A stretch of DNA of 64,000 nucleotides, taken from the NCBI RefSeq assembly GCF_004122735.1, contig NZ_SDIF01000010.1, positions 54,217 through 118,216 of the forward strand. Reading direction: 5' to 3'. Below are positions 55,697 to 59,435 of this stretch, piece after piece (positions within the stretch are counted from its first letter, which is position 1; each line of letters opens with the position of its first letter). Source of the DNA: Streptomyces sioyaensis. Its GTDB lineage: Bacteria > Actinomycetota > Actinomycetes > Streptomycetales > Streptomycetaceae. The notes below the pieces were generated by a model. It was not told the DNA's origin. It was given only the letters and a program-made list of their open reading frames with translations, and ran no database searches. A program made the translations under genes and the position numbers.

Positions 55697-56683
55697 ATGA
55701 AGCTCTCCATCGTCGTCCCCTGCTACAACGAAGAGGCCGTCCTGAGCCGCTTCGACGACACGATCCGCGCGGTCCTCGCCGCGCTCGCCGTCGAGTACGA
55801 ACTCTGTTACGTCGACGACGGCAGTTCCGACGGCACCCTGGCCCGGCTGCGCAGCCTCGCCCAGCAGCACCGCGGCACCACCCGCTATCTCTCCTTCAGC
55901 CGTAACTTCGGCAAGGAGCCCGCCATACTGGCCGGCCTGCGGGCGGCCGACGGCGACGCGGTGATCCTCATGGACGCCGATCTGCAGCATCCGCCCGAGC
56001 TCATCGAGAAGATGCTCGACCTCTACCAACTCGGCCACGACCAGGTCGTCGCCAAGCGCACCCGGCACGGCGACCGGCCGGTGCGGACCGCGCTGAGCAG
56101 GCTCTACTACCGCGCCGTCAACAGGTGGGTGGATGTCGAACTCACCGATGGCGTGGGCGACTTCCGGCTGCTGTCCCGTACGGCCGTGGACGCGCTGCTC
56201 TCGCTGCCGGAGTACAACCGCTTCTCCAAGGGCCTGTTCTCCTGGATCGGTTTCGACACGGTCACCTTCGACTACCGCAACGCCGCCCGGGAGGCGGGCG
56301 AGACCAAGTGGCACGTCGGCTCGCTGGTCAACTACGGCATCGACGGCATGCTGTCCTTCAACTCCCGCCCGCTGCGGCTGGCCATCTACGCCGGGCTCAC
56401 CCTGGCCTCGCTCGCCGCCCTCTACACCCTGTGGATCATCGGCGCGGCCCTCGTCGGCGGGGTCACCGCGCCGGGCTATGTGACGCTGGTGGCCATCATC
56501 GTCGGCCTGGGCGGGCTGCAGATGGTGATGCTCGGGCTGATCGGCGAGTACATCGGACGGATCTACTACGAGGCCAAGCGGCGGCCGCACTTCCTGATCA
56601 AGGAGAGCAACACCGCCGTCCCCGCGCCCACGCCCGCGGACGCCACCCGGGCCGGCTCCCGGGCCGGCTCCCGGGCCGGCTGA
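55697..56683 (+). CDS. GtrB/DPM1-type polyprenyl-phosphate glycosyltransferase
   Basis: A 328-residue GT2 enzyme with two C-terminal membrane segments. KLSIVVPCYNEEAVLSRFDDTIR, YVDDGSSDGTLARLR, FSRNFGKEPAILAGLRAADGDAVILMDADLQHPPELI and GVGDFRLLSRTAVDAL give the whole catalytic domain. Segments at about 235-258 and 267-290 anchor it. The family charges undecaprenyl phosphate with a sugar at the cytoplasmic face. The C-terminal tail ends in a triple RAGS repeat. The ATG at 55697 is followed directly by the fold. Its TGA overlaps the next ATG by one base (TGATG), coupling it to gtrA. Confidence 0.94.
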   Translation: MKLSIVVPCYNEEAVLSRFDDTIRAVLAALAVEYELCYVDDGSSDGTLARLRSLAQQHRGTTRYLSFSRNFGKEPAILAGLRAADGDAVILMDADLQHPPELIEKMLDLYQLGHDQVVAKRTRHGDRPVRTALSRLYYRAVNRWVDVELTDGVGDFRLLSRTAVDALLSLPEYNRFSKGLFSWIGFDTVTFDYRNAAREAGETKWHVGSLVNYGIDGMLSFNSRPLRLAIYAGLTLASLAALYTLWIIGAALVGGVTAPGYVTLVAIIVGLGGLQMVMLGLIGEYIGRIYYEAKRRPHFLIKESNTAVPAPTPADATRAGSRAGSRAG

Positions 56684-57111
56684 TGCGCGGGCTGCCGACG
56701 CCCGTCCCCTGGGGCCGGATGGTGCGCTTCGCCACCGTCGGCGGGGTCAACACCCTCACGTTCTACGCCTGTTACCTGCCGCTGCGGCGGATGCTGCCGT
56801 ACTTCGCGGCCTACACCGGCGCCTTTGCGCTGAGCATGGTCTGCTCGTTCCTCCTGAACACCTACTTCACCTACCGCACCCGGCCGACCTGGAAGAAGTT
56901 CCTGCTCTTCCCGCTCACGCAGGTCACCAACTATGCGGCGCAGAGCGTGGGGCTGGTGCTGCTGGTGAGCTGGTGCGGGCTGAACACCGCGGTGGCGCCG
57001 CTGGCGGCGGCGCTGGCCGCCCTCCCGTTCACCTTTCTGGTCTCCCAGCGCATCCTGCGCCCGCCCGCTCAGCCCGATCCGCCGCCGGCCCGCTCCGGCG
57101 GACCCGTCTAG
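56683..57111 (+). CDS. GtrA-family membrane protein (putative lipid-linked sugar flippase)
   Basis: A 142-residue protein with four membrane segments (MVRFATVGGVNTLTFYACYLPL, FAAYTGAFALSMVCSFLLNTYFTYRT, then two more). RFATVGGVNT and FLLNTYFTYR are the GtrA hallmarks. Family role: moving undecaprenyl-phosphate-linked sugars made by the partner GtrB across the membrane, here presumably for the YfhO-like protein upstream. The stop TAG at 57109-57111 is peculiar: TA belongs to a probable target-site duplication and G is the first base of an inserted palindromic element. Without the insertion the stop would be TAA at the same place. Confidence 0.93.
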   Translation: MRGLPTPVPWGRMVRFATVGGVNTLTFYACYLPLRRMLPYFAAYTGAFALSMVCSFLLNTYFTYRTRPTWKKFLLFPLTQVTNYAAQSVGLVLLVSWCGLNTAVAPLAAALAALPFTFLVSQRILRPPAQPDPPPARSGGPV

Positions 57112-57272
57112 GGGCTGTCGTTTGGATCAGGCCGGATCAGGGAGCGGGGTCTGGTGTCGTGCATCGCAAGGCGGAGGAGGGAGTCAGGGCGGAGCCCTGG
57201 CGACCGACGACAACGCGGCGAGGTGCGGTGCCAGACCCCGCGAGCCCGGCCTGATCCAAACGACAGCCCCTA
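57109..57272. mobile_element. 160-bp palindromic MITE-like element flanked by TA, inserted in overlapping stop codons
   Basis: The element body is 57111-57270. Its terminal inverted repeats, 57111-57135 and 57246-57270, are identical over 25 bp (ends GGGGCTGTCGTTTGG...). TA flanks both sides (57109-57110, 57271-57272), as a TA target duplication. Inside, CGGGGTCTGG (57145) recurs inverted at 57230-57239, and the centre is CAGGGC-GGA-GCCCTG (57185-57199). Most inner mismatches are G-U compatible in the plus-strand RNA, so the transcript would fold as one long hairpin and serve as a terminator. It has no coding capacity. TA duplication suggests an IS630/Tc1-like partner transposase; that is inference. 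Confidence 0.8.
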
Positions 57273-59435
57273 AGCCCGCCACCCCCCGAACAGCGCACGC
57301 TGCCCGACCGAGGTCTGGCGGGCCGTGTACAGCCTGCCGTCGGTGCCCAGCGCGACCACCACCGCGCGCCCGGCGACGTCCTGGGCGACGCCGGCCGCCG
57401 CCGAATGCGCCACCCTGCCCCGCTGCCAGGGCCCGGGGGCGTCCTGGGCCATCGCCATCCGCACGTCGCCGGCATCATCACGGGCCGCGAGCACCATCCG
57501 GCCGGCCCCGCCGACCGGCGCCGCCGCCACCCGCCCGTACCCGCCGACCGCCGCACACCGCGCCGACACCCGCCAGCCGCCGATCATCCGCGGCCGCTCG
57601 GCGATCAGCACCTGGGCGGTGGCCGACCGGCGGAAGACGGCCCGCACCACGCCGTCGGCCAGCGGGACGAGGCTGACCGGGCCGGCCGGCTGCGGCAGCC
57701 CGGTGGCCGCGGCCGGCCGCGGCGGCCCCCCGGCCTCCTTGGACACCCAGTGCTCCACGGTCCCGGCGCTCGGCGCGGCCAGATGGATCAGCCCGGCGGA
57801 GTCCACGCAGGCGTCCAGCCCGTCGATGATCCGCGGGGACGCCAGCAGCGTGCTGACCGTGCCCTCCAGCCGCTGCCACGGCGAGAAGCCCCGCCCGGGC
57901 AGGCCGCTGCGGTGCGCGATGTTGCCGTCCCAGGTCCGGACGAAGACGTGCACCGTGCCGTCCGGGGTGGCCACCGCCGCCGGGAAGCCGATCTCCAGCG
58001 ATCTGACCGGGTCCGCGTCCGGGGAGCCCAGCGACTCCCAGCGCGCGAACGCGGGCACCCCGTCCGGGCCGGTGCCGGTCTGCGGTGCGGTCAGCAGCTC
58101 CCGGTGGTGGTCGGTGTGCCGGCCCGGCAGCACGGTGCGGGAGGCGAACAGCTGGAGCGTGCCGTCCGGGCGGCGCACCACATGGAGCTGCCCCTGCAAC
58201 AGCGCACCGCCGACCGGTACCGGCGCGCCGAAGCTGCCGCTGCCCGGCCGGGTCTCGGCCCAGCAGTACGCCCGGCCGCCCAGGACCGCGAAGGCCGCGA
58301 GCCGGCCGTCCTGCGCCGGGCGGAGCCAGGCGTTGGAACCGGGCGCCCGCAGCCGGGTGCTGCGGGTCCAGTTGCGGGACCCGCCGTAAAGCGCCGAGCC
58401 GCCCACCTTGCGGTCGCCGCAGCCGGCCGGGTCGCCACAGGCGCGGTGGTCGGCCCAGCCGTAGACCGACAGCAGCGCGGCCTTGCGGCGGGCGGTGGCC
58501 GGGTCGAGGTCGTGGGGCAGCACTCCGGCCTCGTAGCCGAGGTAGTGCTCCACGATCGGGGGCCGCCCGCGGTCGGCGTACGCCGCCAGCGCGGCCTGCG
58601 CGAAGTAGGCGGAAGCGGTGTGGTCCTGATGGTCGTAGTAGCGCAGCCCGGCCAGCCGGGGATCGTGATCCGGGGTGGCCGGCGGCCGCTTCCGCGCGTG
58701 CACCGCGTTCGGGTCCAGGGTCCGTACGACCGTGGGCCGGACCCGGTCGAGCACCGCCACCAGGGTCCGGATGACCTGGTCGCGGGTGTAGTGGAACTGC
58801 CGCCGCACGGGGGTGCCGTCGGGACGCAGCGTGGGGAGGGTGGCGGCGGCCCCGAGCCACAGGCCGCGCAGGCTGACCGTGCGGGCCTGCCAGACGGCCC
58901 GGGACTCCACCAGTTCCAGGAAGATCAGCTGGTGCTGCGGGGCGTCGTGCAGCGTCTGGATCTCCGCCTCGAAGCCGGGGAGCAGGGAGAGGGCCGCGAC
59001 GTCCCAGCGGGCGGCCGGGCTGCCGGTGACCATCGCGGCGTGCGCGGCCCGCAGTCCGTTGGCCCGCGCGCGGGCGAAGGCGGCCCGGTCCACCGGGACC
59101 CGCTCGGGGTCGGGGGCCCGCAGGCTGACGTTGTGGCCGTCCGCCTCGCCGCCCGTGAGGCAGACGGTGACCGAGCGCGCGCCGCCGCGCAGGGACTGCT
59201 CCAGGTCGGGGTTCATGAAGTACAGGCCGTCGTCGGCGTGCGCGACGATGTGCACGAAGGACTGGCCGGCCGGGTCCACCAGGGAGCGGCCGGGGCCCGC
59301 CGGTCCGGCCGTACGGGAGGCGTCGTCCGACAGCCGGGCCCAGACCGCGGCGCCCGCCGTCGCGGCGAACAGCCCGCCGCCGGCGACCTGAAGCAGCCGG
59401 CGGCGGGACAGCAGGGGCAAGGGCACGGGTGACAC
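57270..59435 (-). CDS. Secreted PIG-L (LmbE) deacetylase with C-terminal propeller-like lectin domain
   Basis: A 721-residue exported protein. The N-terminus has a Tat-like signal (SRRRLLQVAGGGLFAATAGAAVWA). The PIG-L fold follows: FVHIVAHADDGLYFMNPDL (AHADD zinc/catalytic motif, variant of AHPDD), VCLTGGEADG, and later YYDHQDHTASAYFAQAALAA with the H-x2-H zinc ligands. From about residue 360 to the end there are repeated W-x-R/G-rich blades (RNWTRSTRLRAPGSNAW, RTWDGNIAHRSGLPGRGFSPWQRL, GTDGRLYTARQT) resembling PLL-type sugar-binding beta-propellers. Likely removes N-acetyl groups from an extracellular glycan. Start GTG 59435, or GTG 59426 with better spacing to GAGGGT. Its TAG stop is built partly from the flanking element. 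Confidence 0.88.
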   Translation of the reverse strand: MSPVPLPLLSRRRLLQVAGGGLFAATAGAAVWARLSDDASRTAGPAGPGRSLVDPAGQSFVHIVAHADDGLYFMNPDLEQSLRGGARSVTVCLTGGEADGHNVSLRAPDPERVPVDRAAFARARANGLRAAHAAMVTGSPAARWDVAALSLLPGFEAEIQTLHDAPQHQLIFLELVESRAVWQARTVSLRGLWLGAAATLPTLRPDGTPVRRQFHYTRDQVIRTLVAVLDRVRPTVVRTLDPNAVHARKRPPATPDHDPRLAGLRYYDHQDHTASAYFAQAALAAYADRGRPPIVEHYLGYEAGVLPHDLDPATARRKAALLSVYGWADHRACGDPAGCGDRKVGGSALYGGSRNWTRSTRLRAPGSNAWLRPAQDGRLAAFAVLGGRAYCWAETRPGSGSFGAPVPVGGALLQGQLHVVRRPDGTLQLFASRTVLPGRHTDHHRELLTAPQTGTGPDGVPAFARWESLGSPDADPVRSLEIGFPAAVATPDGTVHVFVRTWDGNIAHRSGLPGRGFSPWQRLEGTVSTLLASPRIIDGLDACVDSAGLIHLAAPSAGTVEHWVSKEAGGPPRPAAATGLPQPAGPVSLVPLADGVVRAVFRRSATAQVLIAERPRMIGGWRVSARCAAVGGYGRVAAAPVGGAGRMVLAARDDAGDVRMAMAQDAPGPWQRGRVAHSAAAGVAQDVAGRAVVVALGTDGRLYTARQTSVGQRALFGGWRA

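Follow-up and report, generated by a model that had tools for sequence, protein, structure and literature searches.

The window, which is the whole 64,000-nucleotide stretch of Streptomyces sioyaensis DNA that was analysed, carries two convergent genes, gtrA and a gene of the PIG-L family, and between their 3' ends there is a palindromic sequence with the layout TA-[160 bp]-TA at 57109-57272 (Table 1). The 26-nt end TAGGGGCTGTCGTTTGGATCAGGCCG is found at 57109-57134 (+) and at 57247-57272 (-) with 0 mismatches between the two, against a mean of 0.00 occurrences in 100 shuffles; when the TA is not counted, the perfect terminal inverted repeat is 25 bp. Re-reading of the sequence and a search for the end motif bear out the original prediction in its coordinates, its arrangement of TAs and repeats, and the perfect match of the two repeats. 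The tips have the exact form GGG(N)CTGTCGTTTGGATCA. As is characteristic of a MITE, the element is short, non-coding and multicopy, has terminal inverted repeats, and belongs to a family with the duplicated target TA (or CTAG) on both sides, for which there are empty sites in loci L217, L220, and L221 and in the relatives of the window. Each of the two TAG stops, that of gtrA at 57109-57111 and that of PIG-L at 57270-57272 (minus), is made of one TA and the first G of the MITE. Excision of the MITE with one TA leaves GTC-TA-AGC, exactly as had been predicted.

Table 1. Features at the gtrA/PIG-L junction, in window coordinates.
Feature	Position	Strand	Basis
gtrA, GtrA/DPMS transmembrane family, PF04138; predicted start; last codon from MITE	56683..57111	+	
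Left TA (target duplication); with next G, gtrA stop TAG	57109..57110		sequence
MITE body, 160 bp (164 bp counting both TAs)	57111..57270		multicopy; absent from 12/12 relative junctions
Left terminal inverted repeat, 25 bp, perfect	57111..57135	+	sequence
Right terminal inverted repeat, 25 bp, perfect	57246..57270	-	sequence
Right TA; on the minus strand, with next G, PIG-L stop TAG	57271..57272		sequence
PIG-L family gene, PF02585, convergent; last codon from MITE	57270..59435	-	

A search of genome contigs for PIG-L homologues gave 17 loci, 12 of which have gtrA convergent beside PIG-L, while the remaining five (L131-L135) do not have the junction. Far from every relative carrying the MITE at this locus, it is missing from all 12 of the related Streptomyces that show the junction. 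In each of these the gtrA stop is TGA and the PIG-L open reading frame extends antisense into gtrA by 31–46 nt, continuing 10–19 codons beyond the end matched by the PIG-L of the window, the C-terminus of which is shorter. It had been proposed that the insertion was into a TA common to overlapping TAA and TAG stops. The TA flanks, the supply of both TAG stops by the MITE, and the empty junctions agree with this; the joined TA, with its TAA/TAG overlap, was expected in related strains and is seen in 0/12, where the empty sites all have TGA and a longer PIG-L. In S. kronopolitis (88% identity in PIG-L) the junction reads GTC-TGA-GCCCGCC, where the window has GTC-TA[G...C]TA-AGCCCGCC. A single G-to-A change in GTC-TGA gives GTC-TAA-GCC and simultaneously converts the PIG-L codon CAG to TAG, which would suggest that the G-to-A change came first and the MITE second, into a joined C-TA-A target. 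Since one such change suffices, the insertion itself need not have altered either the gtrA or the PIG-L protein, and to this extent the claim that neither protein changed can stand, although the PIG-L of the window falls short of those in the relatives. Two other comparisons were put aside: the best full-length match among other PIG-L relatives has 54% identity, and a convergent pair without the MITE in G036 (L062, 63%) was considered too diverged.

The opposite history, with the MITE ancestral at this locus and lost in the relatives, is extremely improbable. Members of the family do occur in the genomes of 6 of the 12 relatives, but all 12 junctions are empty, retain the overlapping reading frames, and have no remnant. 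In S. lydicus the junction is empty despite family matches in nine places elsewhere (94–164 bp, 98–99% identity, two of them full-length).

The original prediction of multiple TA-flanked copies in the host and in other Streptomyces was confirmed by blastn, by end-site searches, and in plasmids and genomes. There are 37 blastn matches to the MITE in the S. sioyaensis genome (7.85 Mb, 289 contigs), a figure in which palindromic copies count for each strand. Apart from the copy in the window, full coverage of the query is seen in two matches of 201–202 bp, the rest being partial. The 21-nt end is found at 23 sites in this genome at ≤3 mismatches, compared with 0 for the reversed control. Of 199 Streptomyces genomes, 11 contain the exact 25-mer, S. 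sioyaensis included, and there are matches to the MITE in 47 plasmid records, without exception from Streptomyces. There was no match in phage records, and none was found in viral contigs scanned with the pattern of the MITE interior. A second subfamily in S. sioyaensis (L008, L009, and L017, on contigs C246, C68, and C231) has the terminal repeat TAGGGGGTGTCTCTTCGATCT and shares with the window MITE the interior block TGCATCGCAAGGCGGA and the CGACAACGC region, the interiors being more alike than the terminal repeats. There are also four 24-bp mini-palindromes in this genome, GGGYCTGTCG...CAGGCCC, two flanked by TA (L036, L047) and two with TG or CA (L042, L048), which are perhaps internal deletions between CAGG repeats of the two ends.

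With family ends accepted at ≤5 mismatches, 63 raw two-ended elements were called, of which 42 were left after near-duplicate flanks and flanks shorter than 150 nt had been dropped. The reconstructed empty sites of these 42 insertions are CTAG in 33 cases, CTAC in five, and CTAA (the window), ATAG, TTAG, and TTAA in one each, as suits the YTAR/CTAG or TA target of IS5/IS427-type elements. CTAG accounts for 39 of 3,406 TA sites in 356 kb of background (the window and the PIG-L loci), a difference with p 3e-51, where the background includes homologous PIG-L loci and is thus not fully independent, and each copy is taken as an independent event in the statistics. The TA is intact on both sides of 28 of the 42 insertions, 24 of these at CTAG, and damaged in the other 14, some of which are perhaps mispaired ends. 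The window target, C-TA-A, is therefore atypical of a family that usually has CTAG.

At CTAG sites a 2-bp duplication of TA cannot be distinguished from a 4-bp duplication of CTAG, and only 4 of the 28 intact sites are informative. IS5 is described in the available text of PMC5493358 as duplicating Py-T-A-Pu, mostly CTAG, an under-represented tetranucleotide, and 4-bp CTAG repeats are reported for IS5-group elements, including one of Mycobacterium shottsii (PMC9241763, PMC3189936, as far as the accessible parts go). The 24 intact CTAG sites would fit a 4-bp duplication equally well, in which case the G of each TAG would come from the target and not from the MITE. This is rather unlikely, as in the four informative sites (window, L051, L136, L206) the 4-mers differ between the two sides while TA is identical, with G/C inside and other bases outside. 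From the TGA of the relatives, moreover, the window is reached with one change if the duplication is of 2 bp and with at least two if it is of 4 bp, and the IS427-group elements in the part of PMC3281130 available have mostly 2-bp repeats. These atypical sites could reflect duplication of TA alone, or later mutation of the outer bases.

An IS630/Tc1-like partner with the same terminal repeats had been expected, and this expectation failed: a search of the host's own genome for DDE_3 (PF13358) gave one match below the cut-off, and this IS630-type locus (L058), being without the MITE repeat, was rejected as the partner. There was no match to DDE_Tnp_1_2 in the S. sioyaensis genome, and the one match to DDE_Tnp_4 there is likewise without the repeat. 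The search of this genome with PF13340 led to L054, an element of 906 bp including the TAs with TAGGCAGTTTCGTTTGGATCA at both ends, which matches the IS5 transposase model NF033580 at 202.6 bits (cut-off 110), the C-terminal part being in another frame. Its terminal repeat differs from the MITE end by 3 mismatches over 20 compared positions. L054 and its plasmid relatives are thus related autonomous insertion sequences of the IS5 family, IS427-like and 903–906 bp long. Three of the nine plasmid relatives (L208, L209, L212) have a 903-bp repeat pair, and in all three the site is C-TA...TA-G, comparable to the CTAG of the MITE; no repeat pair was detected by script in the other six, and the site of L054 itself is C-TA...TA-T, not CTAG.

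The MITE and this IS427 group (L054, L208, L209) are alike in having TA flanks and a terminal repeat with the same TTTGGATCA half. The L054 type has two reading frames and a length near the 832–865 bp given for IS427 elements in the available portion of PMC3281130. Unlike these insertion sequences the MITE has no transposase, and the best match of its interior to the IS loci, 18 nt with E 0.41, is not convincing. No insertion sequence with the exact MITE tips at both ends was found in the best 30 loci from 15 genomes or among nine plasmid loci. On these sequence comparisons the MITE is likely to have been mobilised by an IS5/IS427-type transposase. Separately, positions 1184-1932 of L173 (G088) are a 749-bp IS5-type remnant, one end of which is MITE-like (TAAGACCTGTCGTTTGGATCA) and the other IS-like (TAGGCGGTTTCGTTTGGATCA).

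The most probable reading of the locus, held at about 85%, is that the MITE, likely mobilised by IS5/IS427, inserted with TA duplication at what would have been C-TA-A and supplied both TAG stops. The G-to-A change (gtrA TGA to TAA, PIG-L CAG to TAG) would have created the target and trimmed PIG-L before the insertion. A non-autonomous MITE would then have been moved by the transposase into C-TA-A at the tail of the two genes, where the TA was duplicated and the G-tipped ends supplied TAG for both gtrA and PIG-L.

The window is not alone in having stop codons at the boundary of the MITE. With open reading frames called by codon log-odds trained on five window genes, at least one flanking frame ends in frame at the TAG of the MITE in 25 of the 42 insertions (27 of 84 ends), and both flanking genes do so in two (the window and L149). 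The reconstructed empty codon at these 27 ends is TAG in 24, TAA in two, and TAT in one; this last is L051, which is associated with a stop in the filled state while its empty codon is no stop. Phase 2 is seen at a single end (L089, where the left end of the pair has CT, not TA) and phase 1 at none. A wider set consists of 97 ends with TA intact and flanks of 150 nt or more; here phase 0 is seen at 41 ends, and phases 1 and 2 do not occur. Annotation agrees with the stop association in 4 of 11 annotated plasmid regions (L051, L196, L205, L206); in six the MITE is outside annotated CDSs, and L207 has an annotated hypothetical CDS that takes in most of the MITE match.

The fact that background CTAG sites are themselves rich in stops, with natural stops at 11 of 39 and gene-interrupting positions at 3 of 39, means that the CTAG preference explains much of the link to stop codons. 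There is a residual excess, 25/42 against 11/39 (p 0.007), that may be due to selection. Indeed, the whole association might be thought survivorship, TA insertions being random and those within genes purged: at 2,467 of the 3,406 background TA sites an insertion would break into a called gene, yet an out-of-frame coding flank is found at 0 of 97 ends, and the excess beyond the CTAG background points the same way. As the sole explanation this is improbable, as survival alone does not account for CTAG at 33 of 42 sites when CTAG makes up 36 of the 939 background TA sites at which no called gene would be hit. In a GC-rich genome with codons mostly ending in C, many of the rare CTAG sites would be NNC-TAG stops, and choice of this target would therefore carry the MITE to gene ends. 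Because the TA is duplicated and the MITE begins and ends with G/C, TAG (and CTAG) would be rebuilt on each side with the length of the gene unchanged, and the family is predicted to spread without breaking genes.

At two plasmid loci for which close relatives are empty, the MITE is inserted at a natural TAG stop and the gene has kept its length. In L205, on a plasmid of S. anthocyanicus, the MITE is at the TAG of a racemase gene, where L220 and L221, on S. coelicoflavus plasmids, are empty; the racemase CDS is 738 bp in all three, and the right-hand duplicate in L205 is TG instead of TA. In the filled L206, fabG ends TTT-TAG at the MITE, compared with TTC-TAG in the empty L217, and the fabG CDS is 786 bp in both. 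Over a 236-nt right-hand alignment this pair is mismatched at two positions only, immediately before and after the TA, with CTAG in L217 and T-TA...TA-A in L206; there is additional non-matching sequence to the left of the MITE in L206. For the plasmid queries L051, L196, and L198, the relatives were too distant for a base-exact left junction.

Similar elements are described elsewhere. MITEPsy1 of Pseudomonas syringae is likewise an IS5-like MITE that targets CTAG, being 100 nt with a target of CTAG or YTAA; it differs in its reported 4-bp duplication and unrelated repeat, and a link to stop codons is unmentioned in the portion of PMC3189936 available. The Correia/NEMIS and RUP MITEs are of comparable size (about 107–155 bp), and RUP also has TA-containing targets and is thought to be moved in trans by an insertion sequence, in its case IS630-Spn1, unlike the window MITE; stop-codon rebuilding is undescribed in the accessible text on these elements, where NEMIS hairpins are proposed as RNase III substrates (PMC2229807). 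In the open-access literature, outside which most subscription papers lie, neither an account of the present family nor stop-codon rebuilding by a MITE was recognised in the text available. MITEs, including those that form hairpins, and the preference of IS5 for CTAG are already known; the part without precedent in the open-access text searched is the link from CTAG to the stop codon with a rebuilt TAG.

The rule for harmless landing that this provides is simple and testable: a rare tetranucleotide target coincides with stops in GC-rich genomes, and the stop is restored by the base at the tip of the MITE itself. A parallel is offered by integrases that re-form the ends of tRNA genes, with the difference that for the MITE one TA and one G are enough. 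A broader, tentative proposal is that of a stop-codon-addressed transposon with a self-renewing safe harbour, some copies of which (that of the window included) act as hairpin insulators and which has reshaped gene ends across Streptomyces. If true, the harbour would be the ends of GC-rich genes, and every CTAG insertion would leave two CTAG/TAG sites.

With 4 nt on each side, the plus strand of the MITE has a predicted folding energy of -126.7 kcal/mol (z -12.2), which none of 200 shuffles equalled. The inner mismatches had been described as mostly G-U compatible, as if RNA folding were maintained. In a structure-free alignment of the arms of 20 members, the commonest states of the 74 columns are Watson-Crick in 55, G-U in four, and neither in 15, which makes the inner arms less regular than had been claimed. 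Derived arm states are G-U in 21 cases and A-C in 11 (p 0.11) among the 20 members, and 18 and 6 (p 0.02) when the count is restricted to the 14 copies with a length of exactly 164 bp. There is thus a modest bias of the kind suggested, but the G-U pairs are largely inherited within the family. An earlier count on the minimum-energy structure of the window (103 G-U against 11 A-C inner pairs) was biased, as that structure holds only pairs that form in the window, and was replaced by the structure-free one. The alignment contains 25 compensatory states, and the arm changes fit folding but also a function of the repeats in transposition.

It is possible, though doubtful, that the MITE was retained as a bidirectional terminator or insulator hairpin between these convergent genes, the orthologues of which overlap; the predicted hairpin would then insulate two formerly overlapping transcripts. 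The stability of the hairpin, the overlap in the 12 relatives, and the compensatory states are in keeping with this. Structured, U-poor 3' ends occur in S. clavuligerus, according to the part of PMC8269248 available, which makes a terminator role possible for the MITE. The intrinsic terminator pattern (GC hairpin and U-tract), however, is absent from 56600-57800, and the compensatory changes may stem from the role of the repeats in transposition. Moreover, genes end at the right end of the MITE, which is the PIG-L side in the window, more often than at the left (22/40 against 6/32, p 0.003, the 25 of 97 ends without left/right assignment being outside this comparison), and the reading direction that faces the right end folds less stably in 20 of 20 copies compared. 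That stop-sharing genes favour the less stable direction argues against selection for a more stable transcript. A search of Rfam 15 gave four matches, all far below the gathering score, and these microRNA-type hairpins were taken as chance.

The MITE separates genes whose orthologues overlap in antisense, and naturally occurring filled and empty alleles could be used to probe the effect of such an overlap on convergent transcription. Upstream of gtrA, the stop codon of a glycosyltransferase gene overlaps the predicted gtrA start (TGATG, 56681-56685), so that the MITE is likely to be at the end of an operon.
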